This document shows, one piece after another, positions 7,280 through 19,234 of a stretch of DNA of 20,634 nt (its first letter is position 1; each line of letters opens with the position of its first letter). The position numbers were made by a program, and so were the translations under genes. The stretch is from IMG/VR virus record IMGVR_UViG_3300027801_000204, positions 1-20,634 of that record; one strand, written 5' to 3'. Under the pieces are notes generated by a model that searched no databases, was not told the origin of the DNA, and was given only the letters and a program-made list of their open reading frames with translations. The stretch is from a virus.

Positions 7280-9217
7280 TTAGGGTAAGGTTAATCCTGT
7301 TGCTGTTTCCCAGAGGTTTTTGAGTGCTAGGGTGAAGTCATCACTATCAGCTAGTGTCATGCCTGTTCCTGCAAACCACGCACCAAATTGGTCGTCAGTG
7401 AAACCTACGGGCGAGTCATTCACATTAACCGCCATTGTGTAAAAGTTCACAGTAGGTGTTGCGCCGCTAGCAGTGTAACTTTGGGAGACGAGGCTGGATG
7501 TTGACGATGAGTCTCGTTTTGAGATGAACGCATCGCCTGATAAATACGACACAACTAAAATACCCTCAAGCCCTGAGCTACCATCGTTGATCGTATCGCC
7601 ACCATTGATGGCATACAGACCACCACCGCTGGAGGTATTAAACCTGCATTGATTACTTCCCTCACGCGATGCAATTATGTTTTGACTAGCTCCTAGTTCT
7701 GTTCGTAGTAGTCCGCCCAAAATCACCGAGTCAGTAGTGACTCCGATTGCCGCTGGGTCAACTCCCACATCAAAATAACCAGTCGAGCCATCACCCTCTA
7801 CATATCCAGCCGAGTGAGTCACGCCACCATTAAACGTGCCAGTGGCAAGCGTAATCATGTCGATAGCATTTGCCGCTTCCACCGCCCAGATAGGTAGATA
7901 CATGCGCTTGAGTGACGTGTAGTAACCGTCTGATTTAGCCGCCTTGTAGAATGTGTTTAGTGCAGTTTCTTGAGTAGCTGACACTGTAGCTCCCGCCGTG
8001 CGAACATCTGCTATGTATGCCACCGCGTCAGTGTCTGTCCCGTAGTTAGGAAAAGCTGAGAAATCCGCCTCTACCACTGTCAGCCCTGTGAAGACACTAG
8101 CCTGAGTGTCGGCGGTGGTGATCATTGTGTTGATGTCTGAGATGAAATCTGCAACTGGTGTGCCTGATCCTGCCCCGCCGTAAGTCCACATGGTTACAGA
8201 CACAAACTCACCGTCAACAATCACCCCTGCTGGGTTGCCTGAGTCACCGCTTATTATATTTTCATGGAAAATGAGCCTGTCTAAGTCAGTTGGAGTCATG
8301 AAGTTACCGCCGCCTGTCCAGTCTATAATCAGGGCTTTTTCTTCCTGATCAAGTCCAATCGCTCCCGGTCTGTTGCTGCTATTCTCTACAAGATAATCTT
8401 CGTAGTCGGACGGCATTAGCTTACATGGTGTAATGCTAGATGGCAATGCTGAGTCTAGCACAGCCACTCTCAAGTCAGGGTAGTAAGGAGAATAGTCGGG
8501 ATGGTTCACCACTCCTGTGATGGTGCGCGTGAGGACAGTATTGTCATTAGCAACAAACCTCACGGTGTCGCCAATGTAAAGCGGGTAGTGTGACGCCATA
8601 AGCAGATGCTGTGCTGTGATAAGCGTTCCTGCTCTCTTGCTGCCACCTCTGCTATTCCAAGGAGAGGCGCAAGTGAGGTCCACATCGTCACACCATAGAT
8701 TAGTATTGCGAACGTAGGTAGATGTCACGTGATTCTGAGTGCTGTAAATGCCACCATTAGTAGCCATAGACATAGTGTCATCTATACGGCTGTCTATCTC
8801 GTTTGATACGTGTTCAGCGAGTGATCCGACTACGGCATTAGCATAGGATTCAGTATCTCCCTGAGTCTGATCTGCTAGGTTTAGGTCGATGCCGATTGTT
8901 ACACCGTTTTTAACTAGGACTCTGCATTGACCAGAGGCAACCCTAGTTATCACGCCATCTGATGCAATAGTTGCAATATCTGTATTTAGGCTTTCAAACG
9001 TGGCTTGAGTGCCAGTTACTAAAACGCTCCCGCCATTGTAGAATGTGCCACCGTTGTAAACGTCAAACACTGCATCATCATTAGTCACCGTAGTGCTAGT
9101 TGATCCGGTTAAGACAATCACCTCTGGACTATATGACACCGACAAGTTTGGCTCGTCCGCCAATACTGGCGGACGAAATGTGATTGCTGATGCGTTGTGT
9201 GTGAGAGTGAGTGCCAT
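7280..9217 (-). CDS. Tail adhesin/fibre with an embedded trypsin-like serine protease and a C-terminal lectin-like region
   Basis: This 645-aa protein looks modular. Residues about 30-112 resemble a bacterial Ig-like (BIG_2) domain (DIATIASDGVITRVASG). Residues about 190-350 match a chymotrypsin-fold peptidase: H210 in LITAQHLLMASH, D248 in YPDLRVAVL and S326 in ISGDSGNPAG stand in the order and spacing of a catalytic triad. Residues about 394-475 resemble a connector common in environmental phage tail proteins (DAVAYIADV, then FYKAAKSDGYYTSLKR). Residues about 470-645 look like a concanavalin/LamG-type lectin region (YVEGDGSTGYFDVG). No signal peptide is seen, as expected for a virion protein. 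It starts 4 nt after the fibre stop. Likely role: a receptor-binding protein that binds and cuts a surface protein, or cleaves itself during maturation. Domain calls are from motifs, not a search. Confidence 0.75.
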   Translation of the reverse strand: MALTLTHNASAITFRPPVLADEPNLSVSYSPEVIVLTGSTSTTVTNDDAVFDVYNGGTFYNGGSVLVTGTQATFESLNTDIATIASDGVITRVASGQCRVLVKNGVTIGIDLNLADQTQGDTESYANAVVGSLAEHVSNEIDSRIDDTMSMATNGGIYSTQNHVTSTYVRNTNLWCDDVDLTCASPWNSRGGSKRAGTLITAQHLLMASHYPLYIGDTVRFVANDNTVLTRTITGVVNHPDYSPYYPDLRVAVLDSALPSSITPCKLMPSDYEDYLVENSSNRPGAIGLDQEEKALIIDWTGGGNFMTPTDLDRLIFHENIISGDSGNPAGVIVDGEFVSVTMWTYGGAGSGTPVADFISDINTMITTADTQASVFTGLTVVEADFSAFPNYGTDTDAVAYIADVRTAGATVSATQETALNTFYKAAKSDGYYTSLKRMYLPIWAVEAANAIDMITLATGTFNGGVTHSAGYVEGDGSTGYFDVGVDPAAIGVTTDSVILGGLLRTELGASQNIIASREGSNQCRFNTSSGGGLYAINGGDTINDGSSGLEGILVVSYLSGDAFISKRDSSSTSSLVSQSYTASGATPTVNFYTMAVNVNDSPVGFTDDQFGAWFAGTGMTLADSDDFTLALKNLWETATGLTLP

Positions 9218-9221
9218 TATG

Positions 9222-10313
9222 TTATGATATTGATCCTAATGAGAGTGATTTGATTGTCCCTGCGTCATTTACGTATAAAGTCATCGCATCCCCGTTGCGC
9301 TGTATAGTCATCATTTCCCGACCTAAAGTTCCGTCTGCCTCACTACCCGCCGTTGCTCCGCCGTCTGTTGGTGCTGTGGCTGTGTCTTTAATTGTGTAAG
9401 CTACCTGACCATCACCTTGTGTTCTCAAAGATGTTGCTCTAGTTGTCGCGCCAGACCAGTGTCCGATTTCTTGAGTGTTGTTCACTGTGGTTTTAGTAAA
9501 ACTACCACTTGCTACTGAGTTAGCCCCGCTCGCTACTGAGCCACTACCACTAGCTACTGAGGCACTACCACTAGCTACTGAGCCACCACCACTAGCTACT
9601 GAGGAATCACCACTTGCTGTTGAGTAAGCACCGCTTGCTACTGAGGAAAAACTGCTTGCTGTTGAGTTAGCCCCGCTTGCTACTGAGGACTCACCGCTCG
9701 CTACTGAGCCACTACCACTAGCTATTGAGTAAGTACCACTTGCTATTGAGTAAGCACCACTTGCTGTTGAATTATCACCACTAGCGTCTGAATTTAACCC
9801 AATGGCTAGTGAATCCGTTCCAGTGGCTGTAGAGAGCGCCGCCGCCCTCATTACCACCGCTTTACCACCAGTGGTCACACCATCACCAATGACAGGGATA
9901 TTGCCAACCTCGCCAAGTGTGCCTTCGGCTGGAACTATGCCAGTCATGTCTGCGAGCTCCATATTCACCACAACGTTTCCAGTCGGGTCGTAAATGTTAT
10001 TTCCAAGCGGTTCGAATAGTCCTGATTTGACTTCTAGCAATGAGTCGAGAGCATACCAAACACCTCCGACCGCTCCAGCCGTGGCCACTTTGTAGCGCGC
10101 GCCGTCTGCTAGACTGGTAGGATCAACGTCAAATGCTCCAGCTACCACGTTCACATCTGTGTAAATGTATTTATTGTCCCCTTCATCATTAAAAAATGAA
10201 AGTAATAGAGCTGTTTGCTCGTCATCCCATCTAGACCCTAGCGCCTCATCCATTGTGAGTGTGCCGTTATTGCCTTTTGCTACCAAGGCTTCATAGTTTG
10301 CTGAATTGCTCAT
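9222..10313 (-). CDS. Tail fibre with YadA-like head repeats
   Basis: This gene encodes 363 aa. Residues 1-43 are a short anchor-like segment, also encoded separately just upstream (10319-10450). Residues 44-120 form a second region containing the motif GGVWYALDS. Residues 161-272 are sixteen tandem heptads of the form S(V/T/I)ASGxx, the pattern of YadA-type left-handed beta-roll adhesins, here with a strict 7-residue period. Residues 278-363 (EIGHWSGATTRATS, then GGATAGSEADGTLGREM) resemble a C-terminal module shared by many environmental phage fibres. Probably a trimeric fibre that contacts the host or carries the next gene's product. It starts 5 nt after the mini-gene stop; leader GATTAAACACT has no Shine-Dalgarno. 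Confidence 0.75.
   Translation of the reverse strand: MSNSANYEALVAKGNNGTLTMDEALGSRWDDEQTALLLSFFNDEGDNKYIYTDVNVVAGAFDVDPTSLADGARYKVATAGAVGGVWYALDSLLEVKSGLFEPLGNNIYDPTGNVVVNMELADMTGIVPAEGTLGEVGNIPVIGDGVTTGGKAVVMRAAALSTATGTDSLAIGLNSDASGDNSTASGAYSIASGTYSIASGSGSVASGESSVASGANSTASSFSSVASGAYSTASGDSSVASGGGSVASGSASVASGSGSVASGANSVASGSFTKTTVNNTQEIGHWSGATTRATSLRTQGDGQVAYTIKDTATAPTDGGATAGSEADGTLGREMMTIQRNGDAMTLYVNDAGTIKSLSLGSIS
9498..9833 (-). repeat. Sixteen tandem 21-bp units encoding YadA-like heptads
   Basis: Within the fibre gene the DNA repeats with a 21-bp period. On the plus strand, units such as GCTACTGAGCCACTACCACT recur with scattered substitutions. Each unit encodes one heptad (SVASGSG, SVASGAN, STASGAY and so on). 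The reading frame is unbroken, and the units nearest the fibre C-terminus are the most alike, as expected for recent unequal crossover or slippage. Confidence 0.9.
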
Positions 10314-10318
10314 AGTGT

Positions 10319-10450
10319 TTAATCTTTAAAGAATGAAAGGAGAAGAGCTGTTTGTTCAGGTGTCCATCTAGACCCTAGCGCTTCATCCATTGTAAGGGTG
10401 CCGGCTACGCCCTTAGCTACTAGGGCTTCAAAAGTTGCTGAGTTGCTCAT
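10319..10450 (-). CDS. 43-aa protein duplicating the fibre N-terminus
   Basis: The frame runs from ATG 10450 to TAA, giving 43 aa that start MSNSATFEALVAKG and end LLLSFFKD. By my hand alignment it matches residues 1-43 of the following fibre at 36 of 43 positions without gaps. At DNA level 101 of 129 bases match; of 18 changed codons, 11 are synonymous. That pattern suggests both copies were kept under protein-level selection rather than one being a decaying remnant. The stop lies 5 nt before the fibre ATG. The gene is the first cistron after the capsid terminator. It may be a free copy of the virion-anchoring peptide, or the head of an older fibre gene whose body was lost by module exchange. 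Too short for most gene finders. Confidence 0.65.
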   Translation of the reverse strand: MSNSATFEALVAKGVAGTLTMDEALGSRWTPEQTALLLSFFKD

Positions 10451-10453
10451 AAT

Positions 10454-10481
10454 ATTATAATTTGGTTATCTGATTGTAGAA
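10454..10481 (-). promoter_or_regulatory. Weak promoter candidate for the fibre/lysis unit
   Basis: A perfect TATAAT (minus strand 10459-10454) lies three bases before ATG 10450, downstream of the capsid terminator. The hexamer 17 nt further upstream, TTTCTA, is a poor -35 match. If used, the transcript would begin at about the start codon and be nearly leaderless. Read-through of the terminator could supply the transcript instead, and the hexamer may simply be an A/T-rich translation leader. Confidence 0.25.
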
Positions 10482-10500
10482 AGGTTCACGCCGAAGCGAG

Positions 10501-10560
10501 AAAAAAGAAAAAAATAGCCAACCCCGAATACAAAACAGAAGAAAAATATCAGGGCTGGCT
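10501..10560 (-). terminator. Intrinsic terminator after the major capsid gene
   Basis: On the minus strand AGCCAGCCCT (10560-10551) pairs with GGGGTTGGCT (10525-10516) in a ten-base-pair stem with two G-T wobbles and a 25-nt loop. It is followed by ATTTTTTTCTTTTTT (10515-10501). The hairpin begins 9 nt after the capsid stop codon. The loop is long for a textbook terminator, but stem plus U-tract and the position are convincing. Confidence 0.8.
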
Positions 10561-10569
10561 AAAAATGGA

Positions 10570-11727
10570 TTAACAAGCAGTTAGTCCAAGGTCGTTAGGG
10601 CAACGTAGGTGACGAATAGTAATGCCAAACTCAGTGTGACGAGGTCTGACAGCTGATCCGAGTGTTGCACGGAAGAATCCGTTCTTACCGTCAGGGTTAT
10701 CTGTGCGGTGAGCAATGTTCTTCCATTGGATTTCTCCAATATAGTTCTGAGCTGTGAAGCTGGCTTTATCCACATTAGAGATAGATCCAGGAACAAGACA
10801 GTCATAAACGCTCTTAACAAAGATCATAGTGTCTTCGTGGTCAGCGGCTACATAGTCAGGGTTCTCATCAGCAGCTGTTCCAGCGCCGGTGTCCACCCAA
10901 GGTTGACTTCTCACCCACTGAGTTCCACCAGAATCCCAGTCGTAACGTCTAGGGGTGTCGTCAATCATGTGAACAAAACCATTGTAAGTATGAGTGTAGC
11001 CCATACCAAGTAGTAGTTTGTCAGCTTGTGAAGACTCTCTGAAGTCAGTGCGGGTAGCAGCATCTTCCTTGATAAGCGCTCTTGATGTTTCCATTGAGCA
11101 AACTAGGGCAAAGATAGGCTGACCGTTAAGCATTGTAGCTGCGTCTTGACGGGCTCCATTACGCTGAAGGTAAGCATAGAAGTGATCTAGTGCTTTATTA
11201 GTCAGGATAGAAGTGGCCGGCTCAAGAGGAAACACATCTCCAGCAGCTTGGTTAGTTTCTGGAAGAGAAGCGTTGAGAACAACCTTGCGGTTGGACACCT
11301 TAGCATACCAGTCACGCTTGTAGTCAATCCAAATGTTACGGATGTTTTGTCCGAGCATGTCAACAACGTTGCGCATTTGCTCTTTCATTCTCCACTTAGC
11401 ACGTAGGTCATCAATACAGAAATCGAGAGTTTCGATAGCTGTGCTTTCCAAACTAACGGTTTGGCGAGTTTGATTAAACTGAATGCTAGTAGTTGGCGGA
11501 GTACAGATGTTGGTAGATCCATCAGCTGTAGCGTGGGCTTGCCAGGTTTGACCAGCACTCGGAAGAGTTCTTTCAAACGTGACGGCTTCAAACGAGTGAC
11601 CGATTTCGTCAGGCCACTGAGTTTTGTTAACCATGGAGATCCACGGTGAGCTTGGGTAGATCTTTTTGTCGATCTCTAGAGCTAGGGCTCCGGTAATTTC
11701 TTGTAGTTGATTTTCGATGTTAGGCAT
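10570..11727 (-). CDS. Major capsid protein
   Basis: This 385-aa protein should form the icosahedral shell. It follows the scaffold gene, as major capsid genes of HK97-fold phages do. The N-terminal region (residues about 15-70, with KKIYPSSPWISMVNKTQWPD then VTFERTLPS) resembles capsid proteins of environmental short-tailed phages. The C-terminal third is beta-rich (KNGFFRATLGSAVRP, then FGITIRHLRCP). There is no protease domain or signal peptide. Size fits an HK97-fold subunit without a long delta domain, consistent with the separate scaffold. The gene stands alone between two terminators with its own promoter candidate and a structured 200-nt leader, an arrangement suited to very high expression. 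ATG 11727 has leader CTATATAATAAT without Shine-Dalgarno. Confidence 0.8.
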   Translation of the reverse strand: MPNIENQLQEITGALALEIDKKIYPSSPWISMVNKTQWPDEIGHSFEAVTFERTLPSAGQTWQAHATADGSTNICTPPTTSIQFNQTRQTVSLESTAIETLDFCIDDLRAKWRMKEQMRNVVDMLGQNIRNIWIDYKRDWYAKVSNRKVVLNASLPETNQAAGDVFPLEPATSILTNKALDHFYAYLQRNGARQDAATMLNGQPIFALVCSMETSRALIKEDAATRTDFRESSQADKLLLGMGYTHTYNGFVHMIDDTPRRYDWDSGGTQWVRSQPWVDTGAGTAADENPDYVAADHEDTMIFVKSVYDCLVPGSISNVDKASFTAQNYIGEIQWKNIAHRTDNPDGKNGFFRATLGSAVRPRHTEFGITIRHLRCPNDLGLTAC

Positions 11728-11762
11728 ATTATTATATAGTTTAGTTGTGATCTATTGATCGT

Positions 11763-11925
11763 TTAAGATAAGTTTCATCTTAACTATCCGCTTTATAGAC
11801 AAAGGGACATTTATTCCACCGCTCACGTATGAGTTTAGAAAAGAAACTCTGTGTATTTTAGAACGATAAACGCTATCGAGCTTGGGCGGAATGACTATAT
11901 TTAGAGCTTGCCATATCTGAAGCTC
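11763..11925 (-). promoter_or_regulatory. Structured 5' leader of the capsid mRNA
   Basis: The 298-nt gap 11728-12025 has no credible gene. On the minus strand it holds four hairpins in a row: GAGCTT/AAGCTC (11925-11904, loop 10), CGATA/TATCG (11878-11864, loop 5), GAGTTT/AAACTC (11849-11831, loop 7) and TTAAGAT/ATCTTAA (11783-11763, loop 7). With the promoter candidate just upstream, the first hairpin would sit at the very 5' end of the transcript, as in mRNA-stabilising leaders. CGAGCTT (11926-11920) can also pair over seven bases with AAGCTCG (11883-11877), so an alternative fold exists. Stems are short; function is inferred. Confidence 0.45.
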
Positions 11926-11932
11926 GCACACA

Positions 11933-11960
11933 TCTATACATTTTTCCTAGGACAAGTCAA
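11933..11960 (-). promoter_or_regulatory. Promoter candidate for the major capsid gene
   Basis: On the minus strand TTGACT (11960-11955) and TATAGA (11938-11933) are separated by 16 nt, a near-consensus sigma-70-type pair. It lies just after the scaffold terminator and about 200 nt before the capsid ATG. Expected start of transcription is near 11926. A Bacteroidota-type promoter (TTTG with TAnnTTTG) was not found as a clean match. Confidence 0.45.
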
Positions 11961-11972
11961 ATACATTCGACT

Positions 11973-12002
11973 AAAAAGGGCCAGAGGAAGCCCCTAGCCC
12001 TT
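11973..12002 (-). terminator. Intrinsic terminator after the scaffold gene
   Basis: On the minus strand AAGGGCTAG (12002-11994) pairs with CTGGCCCTT (11984-11976) over nine base pairs with one T-G wobble and a 9-nt loop, then runs into a T-tract (CTTTTT, ending at 11973). It starts 23 nt after the scaffold stop. Stem, loop size and U-tract are all standard. Confidence 0.75.
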
Positions 12003-12025
12003 GAAAATAGCGTTTAAATGGAAAT

Positions 12026-13237
12026 CTAACTAATTCCATCAATAATTCGATCCATGGCGTCTGAGGGCGATTCTCCGCCCCTAAGGTAGCCTTGCGGGCT
12101 ATCACCGGATCTAGGAGCAGGAGCAGAAGCGCCTCTAGGGTTGATGCTATCATCAATAACATCTCTAGCAGACAAAGCGGCCAGCTTCTTAGTCATCTCC
12201 CTATACTTGGTGATCATAGGAGCCAAAGAAACAGCTGACATGGCAGCAAAGGCCTTTTGATCAACAGTCATACCCTCAAAATCAACAGCAGATGCTTGAT
12301 CCTTAAGAGACTTAGATAACGGGCTCTCAGTTCCATCGTCAGCAATAAATAGAGGGATTTGATCTTGGTAGGTGTCAAAGGTGGTAGATACAGACTTCTT
12401 GTAAGCCACATCATTCCTCTCACGCTCTTGTGCTGACAACGCTGCACTAGATGACCTAGACTCCTCAAGAAGAGTAGTAGCATTTTGCTCAATCTGAGAC
12501 TCACGCTGGTAAAGAACAGTCATGTCATCAGCCATTTTGATTATGGAAGCGTATGATCTGTCATCCAGGTCAGCCTTAAGGGCATCAATGGCAGAAGATT
12601 GCTCAGAGTAGTCCCGGGATGAAACAGCGCTAAGAATGTCACCAGCATCAACACCAGTTTTCTCAGCAAGAGTTTTAGCTAGTGATGCAATGTCATCATA
12701 AGGAGCCAGTATGTTGTTTTTATAATCAGCTGTTTCGCGGTAATCCACGGCAGACACTTTATCAGACAACTCCTTATTCTGTTTGATCATCTCATCATAA
12801 GAATCAAGTTTGGCTTTAATCTTCTCATACTCAGGAGACGACTCAATGTCACCAGACTCATAAGACTTAATCTTCCTCTCAAGCTCCTCAATGCGAGTGT
12901 TACTCTCTTTAAGTTTGCCCCTAACCTTCTTGAAGCCCTCGCCGGGGTGAGCAGCTTTACTCATCTCCTCGATCTCGCGTTCTGTCTGCTTCTCAAACTC
13001 CTCATCCGGGTTAGCATTGGGATCAACCTCCACCACTTCCTCCTCTTTCTTATCAAAAGGGCTTTCAAATGGCTTGTCTACAGGATCTGCCGGAGCTGGT
13101 GTGTCTGTAGGAGTTGCTAGATCGGCCGGTGTGTCTGTGGTTGAAATGTCGTCCACCTCTGCCATGCTGTCTAGCGCGGAATCCAAGGGGGAATCTGATC
13201 CACCTCTTAACTGTTGTATTGTGCTTTGTTCGCTCAT
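12026..13237 (-). CDS. Scaffolding protein
   Basis: This 403-aa protein should guide capsid assembly and then leave or be degraded. Residues 1-80 are acidic and low in complexity (D, P, T, A; TPTDTPAPADPVDKP). Residues about 80-180 are strongly charged and coiled-coil-like (KLKESNTRIEELERKIKSYE). The middle is helical, and the C-terminus (about 370-403, NPRGASAPAPRSGDSPQGYL) is flexible. Composition, helix content and position between portal and major capsid genes are the hallmarks of caudoviral scaffolds. No protease motif is seen. ATG 13237 has the leader CCAGATAATAAT. A terminator follows the stop. Family identity is by composition and synteny. Confidence 0.75.
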   Translation of the reverse strand: MSEQSTIQQLRGGSDSPLDSALDSMAEVDDISTTDTPADLATPTDTPAPADPVDKPFESPFDKKEEEVVEVDPNANPDEEFEKQTEREIEEMSKAAHPGEGFKKVRGKLKESNTRIEELERKIKSYESGDIESSPEYEKIKAKLDSYDEMIKQNKELSDKVSAVDYRETADYKNNILAPYDDIASLAKTLAEKTGVDAGDILSAVSSRDYSEQSSAIDALKADLDDRSYASIIKMADDMTVLYQRESQIEQNATTLLEESRSSSAALSAQERERNDVAYKKSVSTTFDTYQDQIPLFIADDGTESPLSKSLKDQASAVDFEGMTVDQKAFAAMSAVSLAPMITKYREMTKKLAALSARDVIDDSINPRGASAPAPRSGDSPQGYLRGGESPSDAMDRIIDGIS

Positions 13238-13257
13238 ATTATTATCTGGTTTGTTTG

Positions 13258-13521
13258 TTATTCAAATTCGCCATAATGGTTAAATGGCTTTAGTGTTTGA
13301 CTTAGTTCTTGTGAATCAGTGTTTGCAGCTGCTTGATCAACCCACCTAAAGAAGTTTCTCACCCCCACATCATGAACGTAGGCTCTAGACACTATGTTGT
13401 CTGATTCAGAGGCGATAAGTGAAACGTTGGATGACAGGTCTTGCATTAAGGCTTCCTTGAGGAGCTTGTAGCTCGGATTGGACGCCAAATCCACTGCTGC
13501 TTGTGTGTATTGTTTTTTCAT
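13258..13521 (-). CDS. Unrecognised small protein between Tad2-like gene and scaffold
   Basis: This gene encodes 87 aa starting MKKQYTQAAVDLASNP. ATG 13521 is preferred to an in-frame TTG at 13539 because its leader, ATAACAAAACA, is identical to that of the preceding gene. The protein is soluble, without cysteines, membrane spans or known motifs. The N-terminal half looks helical, the middle contains RAYVHDVGVRNFFRWVD. Spacing is 18 nt after the Tad2-like stop and 20 nt before the scaffold ATG. It may be a small head-assembly accessory or, given its neighbour and shared leader, a second counter-defence gene. Nothing in the sequence decides this. Confidence 0.65.
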   Translation of the reverse strand: MKKQYTQAAVDLASNPSYKLLKEALMQDLSSNVSLIASESDNIVSRAYVHDVGVRNFFRWVDQAAANTDSQELSQTLKPFNHYGEFE

Positions 13522-13539
13522 TGTTTTGTTATTTATCAA

Positions 13540-13902
13540 TTAGCCCAAAATCCAATCTAGTGCAAAAGTGTCACTACTAGACGCCACCCAGTTATCAATA
13601 GATCCGTCTGGCTTCACAATCACCATTTGATTCTGGTAGTCTGGTGAAACACCCTCCAGCTGCATCCTATCTTTTACAGACTGAGGCAATGAGGACATCT
13701 TAGGGACTATATTAGCCGGAACCTTAGAGGGAACTTGTTTAAATGCATACATGCCTGTGCCGTTCCAACCTTCACGCTGGACATAGCCGCCATCTCTCAT
13801 GTGTTCAATCGCCTCACCAAAGGTGTGGGAAATGGTTTGCTTTAATGGCTTCGCAGGTGTTGCTGTTCCTACTGTATCTGGATTGTAATTATCGTTCTTC
13901 AT
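13540..13902 (-). CDS. tad2: Tad2-like (DUF2829) protein, candidate anti-Thoeris signal sponge
   Basis: This gene encodes 120 aa. Residues 27-120 carry the DUF2829 pattern in order: TFGEAIEHMRDGG (27-39), then REGWNGTGMY (43-52) and, near the end, NQMVIVKPDGSIDNWVASSSD (91-111, W105) and FALDWILG (113-120). DUF2829 is the family of Tad2, a phage protein known to sequester the cyclic ADP-ribose-type messenger of Thoeris immunity; some homologues bind other cyclic nucleotides. A polar 26-aa extension precedes the domain. The gene begins 7 nt after the portal stop and has the leader ATAACAAAACA, so it is part of the head-gene operon. Domain assignment is confident from motifs. Anti-defence activity is inferred, since many DUF2829 proteins are untested. 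Confidence 0.85.
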   Translation of the reverse strand: MKNDNYNPDTVGTATPAKPLKQTISHTFGEAIEHMRDGGYVQREGWNGTGMYAFKQVPSKVPANIVPKMSSLPQSVKDRMQLEGVSPDYQNQMVIVKPDGSIDNWVASSSDTFALDWILG

Positions 13903-13909
13903 TGTTTTG

Positions 13910-16300
13910 TTATGGTGTTCGTTTTATTTTGGATGTGCTGTCTAAATCCTTCAATGCTCTGTCTTGAGCTGCCTCCATTGTCTTAATCATAATCTCATGC
14001 TCAGACTTCTGCTGAGCGAGAGCCATCTTAAGCTCATGGTCTTGTGTTTTAATCTGCTGAGATAACTCAGCTTGCATAATTTTAATCTGAGCGTCTGCCT
14101 GAGCCTTAACCATAGCTGAGTCATTAGATGATTGCTCCTCACCTCCCTGTGGTTGCTCTTGTTGCTGCTCCTGCTGTTGGCGTTGTTGCTTCTGAATAGC
14201 TTTAAGGCCATTAGATACAATCTCACCAATTTGCTGGAGCGCTTGCTTAGCGTTGTTTAACTCAGCCACTGATTCGTCAGGAACCTGAGCCACTGAGAAC
14301 GTTTCAACAGCATGATCATAAACCGGCTTCATCTTCATCACTGCTTCAGTGAGTTCAATCTCTCCCTCTTCCACAGCCTGGTGTATTTGCCACAACCATT
14401 GAATGTGAATCTTAAGGTGCACCATAAAGTCTTCTCCGTTATCAATAGATATGGGTAGCCCAATAGAAAGCTGGTTATTCTCCATCTCTGCCACCTTAGC
14501 GTCAATAGGAGGTCTTTCCACTCCATCAAGAGGAACCAAATAGGCTGCATTTTCTTCACCAAACAAATTGATGGCTTTAAGTGCTGCAAACCTTCTGCGA
14601 CCGGCATCATCCATGTAAGGAAGTAATTCTGCTCCCTTAGCAAAGATAGCCTCCTTAGCCGCCTTGTCTCCAAGACCAAGAGGAACGTCAACCATAGCTA
14701 GATCAAAGTCTATGCCATTCTTAAGCACTTCCTCAGGGACACCCCGGGCCACACAAGCTGCCCTCATCTTACCGGCAGCCACACCAAAGTCAGCACCAGA
14801 CGCAGGTGAAGTAAATGCTCTTCTAGCTGAGTTAGATAAAAGCTGTCTCCATGGACGCATGAAAAGCCGCATTGCTGCGGCCGTGATGGCTGATAAGTAT
14901 TCAATCGCTGCACTAACTTCAAACTTAGAACGCCTGTCTGAGCCTTCTGTGAGAGTGCTAGCCATAGATGAGGCTGATGACATTCTGTTAAGCTGTTCCT
15001 TGAGCAGGTTCATTGCCGGAATAGCTGTCCTAGATAGGTCCGGGCTATGCTGGTTCTCTGCAATCTGTAAAGTGGAAGGGATGAGCCTTGCTGAGCCAGC
15101 ATGAATAATAGGAAGTGTGTCCAGGTTCTGCTCAGTGTTCACAACATAGGTTGTAGCCATGGCATCTCTAGCACTATCCATCATACCGCACTGGAGCAGG
15201 TTTGATCCCTGCACTTGAGGGAAGACAATGTGGCCTAGTCCTCTAATGGTGTGAATATTACCGTTATTACCAGTAAAGAAAGGAAAGATTTGAACTGCCT
15301 CACTCATGCTCTTGTAGGCCTTCTTCTTCCTAAACAACCAGTTGTCTGTGATCTTACCATTACCGTCATCCGGGCCAAGGTCAGAGCAAATGTAATGGCT
15401 GATTGTGCCATCATACTCTTCCACTCTTGCATTGATTATCTTAACTGATGCTGTTGGGCTGGCGGTATCAAAGTCATGAGCTTTAATTCTCTCTTCAATC
15501 TGCTCCGGAGACTCCTTATTATACTTATTATCACCAGCTCTAGCTGCATTAACAATGGCAGATCTCACTGCTTCAGGGTTCCAGCCTTTCTTCACTGCCT
15601 CAGCCTCGTTCTTAATGTTACCATACAAAGTAGTGGCTTCCATTTGCTCTTCTGAAGCTATTATTTGGATTGATGAAGAAGTGGCTTTCGATCTAGATGG
15701 CACTTTAAACTCACTTAGTCCACCTGCACTCCATCTCCAGTCATCACCGGGACGAAGGGAACTGAAACCAACACCGTGGGTGACAAATTGCTGAACAAGC
15801 TCAAGGAAGGTAAATTGAGACTCATCCCAACCTCTCACCATCCTAGCATATTCATTAGATATAATATCACTCCACTTCTGTCTATCAATAGGGGTGCCAT
15901 AACCCTGCTTAATTGGCAACTTGATCAATGATGCTGGGTTTGTAAATATGTCCAGGTAGTTGTTAACCACATTGTTAACCGATGCAGCTCCCTCACCAAA
16001 GTTAATATTGAATTGGCTGCCACGACCTAGTTGATCAAGTGTTTTCTGATTATAAGGAGGCTTATAGTCAACCATGGCCTGAACCTTAGCTCTATTACCT
16101 GAATTGGAGTAGTCATCAGTGAGCATGGTGCCATAGATAGATCTAAGCAATGCAGGTGAGCTCATTCTTTCCTCAGCAAAACTCTCTGGGCTAAAATCGT
16201 CTCGTAGGGCTGAGTCTAGGGAGTTTTTAGCGTCATCAATGGCTGAAAAGTCAGTTGATTTAGGGGCTCCCTTAAACATGTTTTTGGTTTCGGCTTTCAT
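13910..16300 (-). CDS. Portal protein
   Basis: This 796-aa protein should form the dodecameric ring through which DNA is packaged and ejected. Residues about 77-115 (VDYKPPYNQ, then GSQFNINFGEG) resemble portal proteins of environmental podoviruses. The central region is mixed alpha/beta. The C-terminal part has a Q-rich stretch (about 698-717) and a long charged helix (about 718-790), suited to a barrel or crown. It lies between terminase and scaffold genes. It is larger than many portals (400-700 aa), mostly through the C-terminal extension. ATG 16300 is 8 nt after the preceding stop. No separate small-head-protein domain was recognised. Identity rests on size, synteny and partial motif resemblance. 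Confidence 0.75.
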   Translation of the reverse strand: MKAETKNMFKGAPKSTDFSAIDDAKNSLDSALRDDFSPESFAEERMSSPALLRSIYGTMLTDDYSNSGNRAKVQAMVDYKPPYNQKTLDQLGRGSQFNINFGEGAASVNNVVNNYLDIFTNPASLIKLPIKQGYGTPIDRQKWSDIISNEYARMVRGWDESQFTFLELVQQFVTHGVGFSSLRPGDDWRWSAGGLSEFKVPSRSKATSSSIQIIASEEQMEATTLYGNIKNEAEAVKKGWNPEAVRSAIVNAARAGDNKYNKESPEQIEERIKAHDFDTASPTASVKIINARVEEYDGTISHYICSDLGPDDGNGKITDNWLFRKKKAYKSMSEAVQIFPFFTGNNGNIHTIRGLGHIVFPQVQGSNLLQCGMMDSARDAMATTYVVNTEQNLDTLPIIHAGSARLIPSTLQIAENQHSPDLSRTAIPAMNLLKEQLNRMSSASSMASTLTEGSDRRSKFEVSAAIEYLSAITAAAMRLFMRPWRQLLSNSARRAFTSPASGADFGVAAGKMRAACVARGVPEEVLKNGIDFDLAMVDVPLGLGDKAAKEAIFAKGAELLPYMDDAGRRRFAALKAINLFGEENAAYLVPLDGVERPPIDAKVAEMENNQLSIGLPISIDNGEDFMVHLKIHIQWLWQIHQAVEEGEIELTEAVMKMKPVYDHAVETFSVAQVPDESVAELNNAKQALQQIGEIVSNGLKAIQKQQRQQQEQQQEQPQGGEEQSSNDSAMVKAQADAQIKIMQAELSQQIKTQDHELKMALAQQKSEHEIMIKTMEAAQDRALKDLDSTSKIKRTP

Positions 16301-16308
16301 AGGTGGTG

Positions 16309-17181
16309 TTATTTAGATGATGCTATTTGAGCTTTAGTGCGTCTCTTAGCTCTTTTCTTTTTAGTGGCTTTCTTGGCGGCTTTCTTAGCCACCTTCTTAA
16401 CTGGCTTGTCTGGCTTCTCATACATTGAAGGCATGTTATCAGATGCACCCAAAGAAGCTTTAAGGTCCTCCTCAGACGTGTCACCAAATACAGGGAGCAC
16501 TAGTTCTGCAACAGCCACCTCTTCAGGTGCTGGCTCAGGAGCTTTAGCAAACGCATCCACCTGGGCTTTATCAACCGTAGATGTTTTAATGAATGGATAA
16601 TTGTCAGCGGATGCATGACAACCAAACTTCTTGAATTCCCAGCCAAGTCGGTTTAGGAGAATAGAGTCTTTAATGTATTTCTTGTAGTTGTAAAACACAC
16701 TAAAGAAATTAGCTGAATAACCTAAGTTACCACTGATCTCAGATGGTTGCTCTGCATACTTAATGCCAAGAGCGATTGCTTCACTCTGGTCAACTCGCAT
16801 AGCAGCAATAAAATCATCGGCCCAGTAGTCTTTATTCGGGGCCCACTCAGGATCAATATAAATCCCTGCGCCAAAGACCTGAAAGTTAGGCCAAGCCGTC
16901 ATAAAGCAGTAAGAGGTGAACTTGTGAACCTCTTCCAAATTATTTGGTGATGGCTTAAATTTAATAATTTCGACAAATTCGTCAAATACCTCCTTAGCGC
17001 GCTGGGTAAATGCCCTATATCGCTCCGTGTCACAGCTTGAAGAGGAAATAACCACTAGCCGCGAACGCAGCTGAGTTGGCTTATGCTTAGCACATGATTC
17101 AATCCATGCTGTTTGGTCTATCCCGGTGGCTTCCCCGCAATATGGCAGGACAATGTTTAGTGTTTCTTTAGTATCGCTCAT
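16309..17181 (-). CDS. Glycosyltransferase-like protein with a histone-H1-like basic tail
   Basis: This gene encodes 290 aa. Residues about 6-200 look like a GT-A-type nucleotide-sugar fold: an opening strand LNIVLPYCG, a second strand RLVVISSSS, and a later FGAGIYIDPEWAP (103-115) where such enzymes place the acidic metal-binding region. The canonical DxD is not obvious. Residues about 210-255 are an acidic/alanine-rich linker. Residues 256-290 are a tail in which 17 of 35 residues are K or R, with KKxAKK repeats as in histone H1-like proteins. The gene overlaps the preceding one by 14 nt and lies between terminase and portal, so it is made with packaging genes. A role in modifying or binding DNA or capsid is inference; the fold call is tentative. 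Confidence 0.5.
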   Translation of the reverse strand: MSDTKETLNIVLPYCGEATGIDQTAWIESCAKHKPTQLRSRLVVISSSSCDTERYRAFTQRAKEVFDEFVEIIKFKPSPNNLEEVHKFTSYCFMTAWPNFQVFGAGIYIDPEWAPNKDYWADDFIAAMRVDQSEAIALGIKYAEQPSEISGNLGYSANFFSVFYNYKKYIKDSILLNRLGWEFKKFGCHASADNYPFIKTSTVDKAQVDAFAKAPEPAPEEVAVAELVLPVFGDTSEEDLKASLGASDNMPSMYEKPDKPVKKVAKKAAKKATKKKRAKRRTKAQIASSK

Positions 17182-17395
17182 AATATGTTTCTTCTGTTTG
17201 GTCTAGTTCTTTGTCTATTCTCTTTCTGAGTATATCGAGGTATATGGACATCACTGAATATTGGTCCTCCACGTCTCTCTGATCATCATCAGACATGTTG
17301 TCAAAATTGTAACTATCCATAAAGGCAATGATTTCATCAACCTCAACCTCCATGTATTCGGCTTTCCTGCTTAACTGTGTTGTGTATGATTCCAT
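17168..17395 (-). CDS. Small acidic helical protein after terminase
   Basis: This gene encodes 75 aa, MESYTTQLSRKAEYMEVEVD onward, rich in D and E, probably two or three helices with no cysteine or membrane span. ATG 17395 lies 6 nt after the terminase stop, and the 3' end overlaps the next gene by 14 nt, so translation is coupled on both sides. No family is recognised. Its size and place would suit a packaging accessory. The overlap and clean coding frame support it as real. Confidence 0.65.
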   Translation of the reverse strand: MESYTTQLSRKAEYMEVEVDEIIAFMDSYNFDNMSDDDQRDVEDQYSVMSIYLDILRKRIDKELDQTEETYYERY

Positions 17396-17401
17396 GATTA
17401 T

Positions 17402-19234
17402 TTATGTAAAGTAAAGATTTGAGCCAGATAGTATATCATGACCATTAACTGCTTTTTGCCATGATGGCGAGCTTCTTTTTTGTATATTTTCAACCTCAGC
17501 ATCAAAAATAAGACCATTAAGTATTGCTGTTTCTAGCAAAATGAACAAACAATCCGCGTGATCCGGGCTATATCCCTCTCTCTTCTTCATGTCACTTTTG
17601 CTCTCAATGCACACCTTAACTCCGGCGCCACCTCTGGTTTGGGTGTTATAACGTCTGGCACACATTTGCGACACCATCTTGTCAGTTAATCCTCTAATCC
17701 TGCCCTCTCTTATCAATCCCTTGGCCTTCACCCATAATTCACTCACCCTGTTACGGTAAACATCATGGGATTTCCTTGTGTCTGAAGCTCCAGCTTGTCG
17801 GGAAGAAGCGGCTCCACCAAAATGAATGTCCTTACATAACGATGACCACTCAGCAACCACAACATCACGAAATGCTAAGCCGGTGCCGGTGGCGTCATAA
17901 CCAAAGTGAGAAGGTTCAACTGAAAACTTGGAGCAATTAGCCCTAAGTTGATCAACCATCTTATGTGATCTAGGCCTCATATCAGATAAGTCATCCTCAA
18001 GAGCCTTACACCACTTAATCTCCAAATATGTTTTGCCCTTAGTATTTGTCACTACCTCACCAAGAACTTGCGGGAATTCATCACCCCCCTGAGTGAAGGC
18101 CGGATCAGCAGCTGAAACACTCTTCCTGCTCACCACTTCACCGTCTCTCTCTGCACTATATGGCTTGTTACAGTAGTTTATAATTATCTCACTCTCAGTG
18201 TAAATAGTTTCCGTGGATGCCTCTCTATACCAAAAAGCCTTATACTGCTTGTAAAACATGAGGGATTTCTCTCCCCACCTTGATTTAGCCTTAATAATGG
18301 CGTCTCTAGAAGGATACCAGGAGTATAAATCTTCACCCCTAAGAATGTTTGGGTTTCTCTCTGCATCAAACCTGTGCACCACGCCACGCTCAGTGAGCCA
18401 AGTGTCGTCACTCTCATCAACGCTATTCCATCCATCCAATGGTTCACACATGTCACCAAATGCATCAGTCATAAGGTTTGGGTTTCCCATGGCCACCATC
18501 TTAAATTCCTGCTTATCCTTATTGGTTCCGTTTACCATGTTACCAAAGGCAGCCTCAACAATCATCTTTGGAAGTTGTGGTAGCTCATCAGCAATCAAAT
18601 ACATTCTCTCCTGTTTAATACCAATAAGAGTGTCGTAAGCGTCTTTCTCAGAGCCAGAGCCAGCAGCTACAATTTGTATGCCCACACTATCTGACTTATT
18701 CCCTGACTTGTCCCAACCTCTCACCATGCACTTAGAGTAAACCATGTCACCAAACTGAGCCATTTTAGGTAGGGCGTGCCAATATTGAGATAAGCACTTC
18801 CACACTCGAAGCTGAGCTCCTTTAATAGATGTAGATGTGATGAGGATAAGAGATTCATTTGGAGCGCAAAGAAACTGAACAATAGCATATATGGAAGCTG
18901 CCATACTCTTCCCGGAAGAAGCACATCCAGCTAAAGACACCACGTCATTCTCAATCATACTCCTAAGCATGCGGTCGGTCCACTCGTTCCATATCACTCT
19001 CTGAGCATTGGCGCCATCCTCACCATCATTCCAATTCCAAAGTATGTCGACTATGTTACAGAAATGATACCACTTATTCACGCGCTCCCCTTCATCCCGG
19101 ATAGTGTTGTAATTATCTCTCCTGTCTTCATGAGAGCACTCAAACTCCTTCTCAGGACGAGTGTCATACATATATGCGAAGATCTCGACAGCTAGCCTGT
19201 GAGTGTCGCCAAATTCCATTCCATAAGCTACCAT
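17402..19234 (-). CDS. terL: Terminase large subunit (packaging ATPase and nuclease)
   Basis: This 610-aa motor protein pumps DNA into the prohead and cuts the concatemer. The ATPase half shows a Walker A GCASSGKS (103-110), a Walker B YLIADE (212-217, with catalytic E217) and a coupling motif MVAMGN (246-251). The RNase H-like nuclease half shows acidic residues D377 in SAADPAF, D447 in GYDATGTG and D558 or D561 in YSPDHADC. All elements are present in order, so the enzyme looks intact. Length is at the upper end of the usual 450-650 aa. No small terminase subunit is recognised upstream. ATG 19234 follows the leader AAATGAAATT, 26 nt after the preceding stop. Confidence 0.93.
   Translation of the reverse strand: MVAYGMEFGDTHRLAVEIFAYMYDTRPEKEFECSHEDRRDNYNTIRDEGERVNKWYHFCNIVDILWNWNDGEDGANAQRVIWNEWTDRMLRSMIENDVVSLAGCASSGKSMAASIYAIVQFLCAPNESLILITSTSIKGAQLRVWKCLSQYWHALPKMAQFGDMVYSKCMVRGWDKSGNKSDSVGIQIVAAGSGSEKDAYDTLIGIKQERMYLIADELPQLPKMIVEAAFGNMVNGTNKDKQEFKMVAMGNPNLMTDAFGDMCEPLDGWNSVDESDDTWLTERGVVHRFDAERNPNILRGEDLYSWYPSRDAIIKAKSRWGEKSLMFYKQYKAFWYREASTETIYTESEIIINYCNKPYSAERDGEVVSRKSVSAADPAFTQGGDEFPQVLGEVVTNTKGKTYLEIKWCKALEDDLSDMRPRSHKMVDQLRANCSKFSVEPSHFGYDATGTGLAFRDVVVAEWSSLCKDIHFGGAASSRQAGASDTRKSHDVYRNRVSELWVKAKGLIREGRIRGLTDKMVSQMCARRYNTQTRGGAGVKVCIESKSDMKKREGYSPDHADCLFILLETAILNGLIFDAEVENIQKRSSPSWQKAVNGHDILSGSNLYFT

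Follow-up and report, generated by a model that had tools for sequence, protein, structure and literature searches.

We identified a Tad2-family gene lying between a putative portal gene and putative scaffold and capsid genes in the window, that is, the whole stretch of DNA analyzed, which is an entire IMG/VR virus contig, 20,634 bases long (Table 1). The classification of the protein as a further member of the known Tad2 family, of the SptTad2/HgmTad2 type, is solid, and its most likely role is to soak up signals of Thoeris and/or CBASS as a sponge. Its position in the window is recurrent rather than unique. Taken together, we favor (with a probability of roughly 0.7) the reading that this is a Tad2-family sponge acquired as a cassette into a head-gene slot that is favored for capsid-timed supply.

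Table 1. Features of the Tad2 locus and its surroundings in the window
Feature	Position	Strand	Remarks
Tad2-like gene (PF11195/DUF2829)	13540..13902	-	120 aa plus stop; domain at residues ~26-120
N-terminal extension, 25 aa	13828..13902	-	low model confidence, pLDDT ~60 at residues 1-20
Insertion between core strands, SptTad2/HgmTad2 type	13630..13734	-	~residues 57-91, motif IVPKMSSLPQSVKD
16-bp perfect direct repeat ATAACAAAACAATGAA, copy 1	13898..13913	-	covers Tad2 start codon
16-bp direct repeat, copy 2	13517..13532	-	covers likely start codon of the small gene downstream
Small gene between Tad2 and putative scaffold	13258..13521	-	~87 aa from ATG at 13521; no family
Putative scaffold, 403-aa ORF	12026..13237	-	label from position only; acidic, coiled-coil-like sequence
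Putative major capsid protein, 385-aa ORF	10570..11727	-	label from position only
Putative portal, 796-aa ORF	13910..16300	-	label from position and size only
PF21825 (crAss001_48 related) protein, 75 aa	17168..17395	-	Pfam match
Putative large terminase, 610-aa ORF	17402..19234	-	weak tblastn to phage terminases

The ORF encodes a Tad2-family protein

The Tad2 ORF is a real gene. The motifs quoted in a previous sequence-only reading of this DNA (TFGEAIEHM, REGWNG, NWVASSSD and ALDW) are all present in the 120-aa ORF on the minus strand (13902-13540), and its proposal of a Tad2/DUF2829 homolog is borne out by sequence, through Pfam, PHROGs and PDB chains, and by predicted structure. Residues 27-119 matched the Pfam family PF11195 (Tad2-like) with E=6.7e-15 and 55.8 bits (cut-off, 25), placing the protein above the curated cut-off across the whole domain (profile positions 2-72 of 73). 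The PHROG matches were phrog_872 and phrog_1048. The best solved chain by sequence was HgmTad2/AcrIIA7 8kbi (3.6e-13), followed by SptTad2 8wjd (1.5e-12), AcrIIA7 9kzr (5.2e-12), and then ModTad2 and SPO1 Tad2.

An AlphaFold model of the protein, built from 46 sequences, had a mean pLDDT of 87.9, with 87 of the 120 residues at 90 or above. Comparison with solved Tad2 structures had been suggested as a check from the sequence alone; at Foldseek E<=0.001 the model returned 24 matches, all of them Tad2/AcrIIA7 entries, led by SptTad2 with cGG (8wjd, 4.5e-10) and HgmTad2 with 1',2'-cADPR (8kbj). In VIA-align, ten Tad2/AcrIIA7 entries scored Z 11.8-13.1 against this monomer model, and the entry ranked after them scored 6.2. 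The ligands present in the matching PDB entries were cGG, 1',2'-cADPR, gcADPR isomers and hisADPR.

Between core strands 52-56 and 92-96 the model places an insertion with helices at residues 63-68 and 74-83, and its IVPKMSSLPQSVKD stretch lines up with the equivalent segment in HgmTad2 (8kbi) and SptTad2 (8wjd). The window protein therefore has the long insertion of the HgmTad2/SptTad2 type, the meaning of which we take from a review: in passages of that source, Tad2 is described as binding cyclic dinucleotides via a long beta2-beta5 insertion, apart from the gcADPR pocket (PMC12043709). The earlier remark that some Tad2s bind other cyclic nucleotides finds support in that this copy carries the dinucleotide-binding type of insertion.

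For the core pocket we compared the beta1-beta2 loop, the beta4-alpha3 loop and alpha3, the elements named in a review. F28, G38, R43, W46, S108, D111, D116 and W117 were invariant in 22 homology-gathered sequences, the window included, and the same eight residues were invariant in a domain-only alignment (n=21). Judged by family conservation, the window protein keeps R43, W46, N47, W105, S108, D111, D116 and W117, and has T in place of K49. Of the pocket surroundings to which attention had been drawn, both tryptophans W46 and W105 are retained, and the change at K49 is the exception. Position 49 is K in 200 of 205 survey sequences, a figure inflated since the survey motif contains this K, and it belongs to an otherwise nearly invariant GWNGKGM motif.

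Many long Tad2 proteins carry a recurring N-terminal module of the YIGTK...GYLVEY...GYISWSP type ahead of the Tad2 domain, for example in L010 (4783-5208), L046, L008 and L009. In Vibrio phage 1.205.O the YIGTK-type module is a separate gene adjoining Tad2, with no Pfam family there. At a guess, VGTATPAKPL in the window protein may be a remnant of this module.

Gene order and neighboring genes

On the minus strand the order runs from the 610-aa putative terminase through the 75-aa PF21825 protein, a 290-aa ORF and the 796-aa putative portal to Tad2, the small gene, the 403-aa putative scaffold and the 385-aa putative capsid. A second contig, L002, is 99.95% identical to window positions 8000-18844 (10,845 bases, with 5 mismatches and 0 gaps) and shows its genes in an identical order, which makes an assembly join specific to the window record unlikely. 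The location between portal and scaffold proposed from the sequence agrees with this gene order; the labels themselves rest on size and order, without profile support. The claim that Tad2 directly adjoins the scaffold did not hold, as the small gene intervenes (a 93-aa ORF if started at TTG, or ~87 aa from the ATG at 13521).

The 796-, 403- and 385-aa ORFs gave no credible Pfam match and no match in NCBIfam or to head-function PHROGs, and tblastn with the putative portal and the putative capsid found 0 matches in 50,697 phage records. In hhalign comparisons of the window proteins with portal, terminase, capsid and scaffold profiles that we built, the probability was at most 4.8%. An AlphaFold model of the putative portal alone was set aside at a mean pLDDT of 38.5. 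A search of IMG/VR by peptide patterns for relatives of the portal, capsid and terminase gave only the near-identical L002 and a short terminase relative in L006; a terminase motif scan (23 stretches) likewise gave unrelated loci except for these two. For the 610-aa ORF, tblastn found weak matches to terminases (E of 3e-3 and 7e-3), and it contains GCASSGKS and GYDATGTG, which we take to be Walker A and nuclease motifs. The terminase label is therefore a little better supported than the portal, scaffold and capsid labels. The relative in L006 is 83% identical and sits within a 932-aa open frame, compared with 610 aa in the window.

Further observations concern the PF21825 protein. In Vibrio phage 1.205.O this domain forms the N-terminal part of a fusion with Tad2, and in Alcaligenes phage QDWS595 (gp06) it adjoins Tad2. 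A general link between PF21825 and Tad2 was considered and dropped: it was strong in the first phmmer round, later rounds drifted into Tad2 via fused proteins, and most of the first-round matches that were scanned belonged to PF13876 by Pfam. Of 66 long Tad2 proteins, 1 carried a fused PF21825 domain and 2 a fused PF13876 (N4 gp49/Sf6 gene 66) domain, and PF13876 genes overlap or abut Tad2 in L256, L072, L078, L196, L034 and others.

Only 1 of the 24 gene starts in the window has a Shine-Dalgarno-like sequence, and the leaders are A/T-rich; A/T-rich leaders lacking a Shine-Dalgarno sequence resemble those of Bacteroidota. Bacteroides phages and a Tenacibaculum locus are also among the nearest Tad2 relatives; on these grounds a host within the Bacteroidota may reasonably be inferred, and no more than that. 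A PADLOC search gave weak, unrelated matches only. Elsewhere on the minus strand, a 363-aa protein (9222-10313) with many SxASG-type repeats and PHROG matches of unknown function is possibly a fiber, and a 645-aa protein (7280-9217) with a beta-rich N-terminus and no NCBIfam match looks like a trypsin-type serine protease, by its GDSGN motif.

A direct repeat flanks the gene

The Tad2 gene is bounded by the two copies of a perfect 16-bp direct repeat, 381 bp apart. This is the longest short-range repeat in the window outside the repetitive 363-aa gene, and a repeat of at least 16 bp within 500 bp arose in 1 of 200 Markov shuffles. Were the two copies to recombine, exactly the Tad2 gene would be lost. 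Because the perfect repeat flanks Tad2 in this way, the arrangement suggests insertion as a cassette. In the 186 of the 198 listed survey loci covered by this test (12 were left out), repeats of at least 12 bp shared between upstream and downstream flanks were found at 8 of 186 Tad2 genes and at 7 of 1283 other small genes (Fisher p=1.7e-4). Vibrio phage 1.205.O has a 25-bp repeat at its head-slot Tad2, the sole case of at least 12 bp among 22 annotated phages.

Tad2 genes recur downstream of portal and minor-head genes

The sequence-only reading had called the position of this gene unusual. This was not upheld, as Tad2 is found repeatedly in unrelated phages just after a portal or minor-head gene, among them Vibrio phage 1.205.O, SpaA1 and the loci L110 (portal-Tad2-scaffold-capsid) and L172 (minor head-Tad2-scaffold). 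None of the papers returned by our literature searches was seen to comment on where Tad2 lies with respect to head genes. For phage AP-20-A, parts of one report number Tad2 (p015) between p014 and p016, which are the holin and the autolysin in whichever order (PMC13299392).

We examined two samples. The annotated sample comprised 22 phage records, drawn from the 40 that were listed out of 75 having a tblastn match; near-duplicates, unannotated records and the annotated records H8, H20, H22 and H37 were left out. The slot between portal or minor-head genes and scaffold plus capsid genes was occupied by Tad2 in 2 of the 22 (Vibrio phage 1.205.O and SpaA1), with the other 20 elsewhere. One further record, BS-TP2, has Tad2 among head-tail connector genes, and in the remaining phages it lies near the terminase, lysis or tail-end genes, in replication or early regions, or among unnamed genes.

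The larger survey searched for the motif GWNGKGM[FY], absent from the window protein itself, and yielded at least 239 loci, 236 of them with a Tad2 ORF and 198 non-redundant at 80% identity. Searching 47 IMG/VR records with the Pfam families for portal and capsid recovered head genes too rarely to be of use (5, 3 and 1 of 47), and neighbors were therefore scanned against PHROGs. Among 96 upstream proteins of at least 200 aa within two genes of Tad2, the commonest families were minor head, portal, head-tail adaptor, head morphogenesis and head protease; the 89 corresponding downstream proteins gave portal, scaffold, terminase and capsid families, together with methyltransferases. Since genes were called as simple ORFs and head labels came from phmmer chains starting at annotated or PHROG-scanned seeds, the head-slot counts are lower bounds.

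In at least 18 of the 198 listed loci, a portal or minor-head gene lay one or two genes upstream of Tad2; for other small genes in the same loci the figure was 24 of 1514 (1.6%; odds ratio 6.2, Fisher p=1.9e-7, within-locus permutation p=2e-4). With a scaffold or capsid gene also within three genes downstream, the counts were at least 8 of 198 listed loci and 5 of 1514 (permutation p=4e-4). Because the loci are centered on Tad2, this comparison somewhat favors Tad2. A mirror test, which sets upstream against downstream counts in the listed loci, is without this centering bias. It gave 12 upstream and 0 downstream for minor-head genes (p=0.0005) and 2 upstream and 10 downstream for scaffold or capsid genes (p=0.039), with no significant difference for portal alone (7 upstream, 5 downstream). 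The upstream minor-head genes of the listed loci form two homologous groups, of 7 and 5.

The head-slot placement is scattered over the Tad2 tree

In a tree of 205 Tad2 domains, 21 of the 204 labelled rows, window included, carried the head-slot label. This label needs 20 changes on the tree (shuffled mean 20.3), and the well supported branches alone force 6. The upstream portal or minor-head proteins of the 18 listed head-slot loci fall into 7 groups with no detectable mutual similarity. Because head-slot copies are scattered over the tree, the placement appears to have arisen repeatedly. With few alignment columns and many open forks, the fine detail of the tree is loose; it nevertheless speaks against a single head-slot clade.

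Proposed mechanism and alternatives

In the mechanism we propose, the Tad2 protein would sequester the cyclic ADP-ribose isomers of Thoeris in its core pocket, and it probably also binds CBASS cyclic dinucleotides such as cGG, because its insertion is of the SptTad2/HgmTad2 type. The gene may have been acquired as a small cassette that entered the head operon downstream of the putative portal gene and upstream of the putative scaffold and capsid genes. There, as a late, strongly expressed and presumably co-transcribed gene just ahead of scaffold and capsid, it could supply abundant sponge as the capsid trigger appears. We suggest that the slot couples sponge synthesis to the trigger, since Thoeris is able to detect the major head protein: in parts of one study, staphylococcal ThsB1 binds the major head protein, so starting signal synthesis, and streptococcal Thoeris likewise recognizes major head proteins (PMC12578639). 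Perhaps the capsid also triggers further signalling defenses besides Thoeris.

The timing part of this explanation, as distinct from the sponge itself, has a competitor to which we give somewhat less than even odds. The gap after portal and minor-head genes could be a neutral landing site that tolerates small accessory genes, leaving position uninformative on function or timing. A short flanking direct repeat is typical of a cassette, and Tad2 occurs too in replication, lysis and tail-end regions. Closeness to head genes overall was only weakly enriched (a head gene within two genes in 29 of 198 listed loci, permutation mean 23.7, p=0.063), and a very similar pattern would result if these sites did no more than tolerate accessory genes. 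In phage PhiNM1, the gene in the slot between minor head and scaffold, gp41, is described in parts of the same study as the sole gene of its block that can be deleted without stopping particle formation (PMC12578639). Against neutrality, other small genes were rarer in the slot than Tad2 in the comparison above, with the reservation that those loci are Tad2-centered. Placement in a head operon could also mean that the protein has been domesticated for structure or assembly, keeping the Tad2 fold and losing ligand binding. The change of K49 to T would fit such a history, which we think improbable: the window protein keeps W46, S108, D111, D116 and W117, all 18 listed head-slot copies keep these and W105 (W46 by construction, being part of the search motif), and head-slot copies form no separate clade.

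A virion-packaged Tad2, bound to the portal or procapsid and entering the cell along with the DNA so that signalling is disarmed immediately, is in our judgement very unlikely. The gene adjoins the putative portal, and model residues 19-120 aligned with chain s of 8qkh, a phage 812 neck protein (Z 6.2, rmsd 3.1, 71 residues); we set this weak similarity aside as evidence since a Z of 6.2 is within the level VIA calls common. The related suggestion, made from the sequence, that the N-terminal extension is a capsid-targeting segment found no backing, as extensions of head-slot Tad2s are neither longer nor commoner than elsewhere (18 head-slot and 180 other listed loci, Mann-Whitney p=0.51), and 9 of the 18 listed head-slot copies have 12 or fewer residues ahead of the domain. 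Few packaged copies would moreover do little, because sponges act by amount or stoichiometry and not by turnover, according to passages of a review (PMC12043709). It is also very unlikely that the protein is an AcrIIA7-like anti-CRISPR inhibiting Cas9 instead of a signal sponge. The PDB entries 8kbi and 8kbk of a close relative are titled AcrIIA7, and the sequence relative 9kzr is AcrIIA7; however, that relative has also been solved in complex with 1',2'-cADPR and with cGG, and AcrIIA7 is listed among Acrs with conflicting activity reports in the part of a 2026 review that covers it (PMC13131331).

The favored reading of a sponge acquired as a cassette into a capsid-timed slot can be carried a step further. 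Unrelated phages may repeatedly have placed a sponge upstream of scaffold and capsid genes for its co-synthesis with the Thoeris-triggering capsid, a form of trigger-coupled counter-defense that we regard as tentative and rather unlikely. If true, head-operon gene order would record which defense the capsid triggers, and small unknown genes in the slot, such as the ~87-aa gene here and gp41 of PhiNM1, would be candidate counter-defense genes. Operon structure could then guide the way both to what a defense senses and to undiscovered counter-defense genes. It is the recurrent slot, rather than the protein itself, that is worth pursuing.

Comparison with known Tad2 systems

SptTad2 (8wjd, with cGG) and HgmTad2/AcrIIA7 (8kbi, 8kbj, 8kbk) share the fold, core-domain length and core residues of the window protein, together with the insertion and its SLPxxxK motif. 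They differ from it in sequence (30-37% identity), and the window protein has T for K49 and the 25-aa N-terminal extension. Tad2 of Bacillus phage SPO1 (gp34.65; 8sme-8smg, 8wje) agrees with the window protein in its core fold (Z 11.8-13.1) and in its conserved residues but is shorter, with 73-86 residues aligned compared with 96-98 for SptTad2 and HgmTad2; it does not bind 3'3'-cGAMP, according to parts of one report (PMC11722364).

In gene placement, Vibrio phage 1.205.O and SpaA1 (P7) resemble the window, with Tad2 between portal or minor-head genes and scaffold plus capsid genes, labels that are putative in the window. Their head proteins are unrelated to those of the window by phmmer. The 1.205.O Tad2 has an N-terminal PF21825 domain, and SpaA1 P7 has no extension. 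The nearest annotated relatives are the Tad2-like proteins of Bacteroides phages BS162P1, BS-TP2 and BS-TP1 (43-49% identity over 80-86% of the query). They have the IIPKMQSLPQSAKD-type insertion as in the window and join the window protein in one supported clade of 10 rows (SH-aLRT 98). Their N-terminal parts are longer than that of the window protein, and their placement differs: Tad2 lies among genes without recognized head function in BS-TP1 and among head-tail connectors in BS-TP2.
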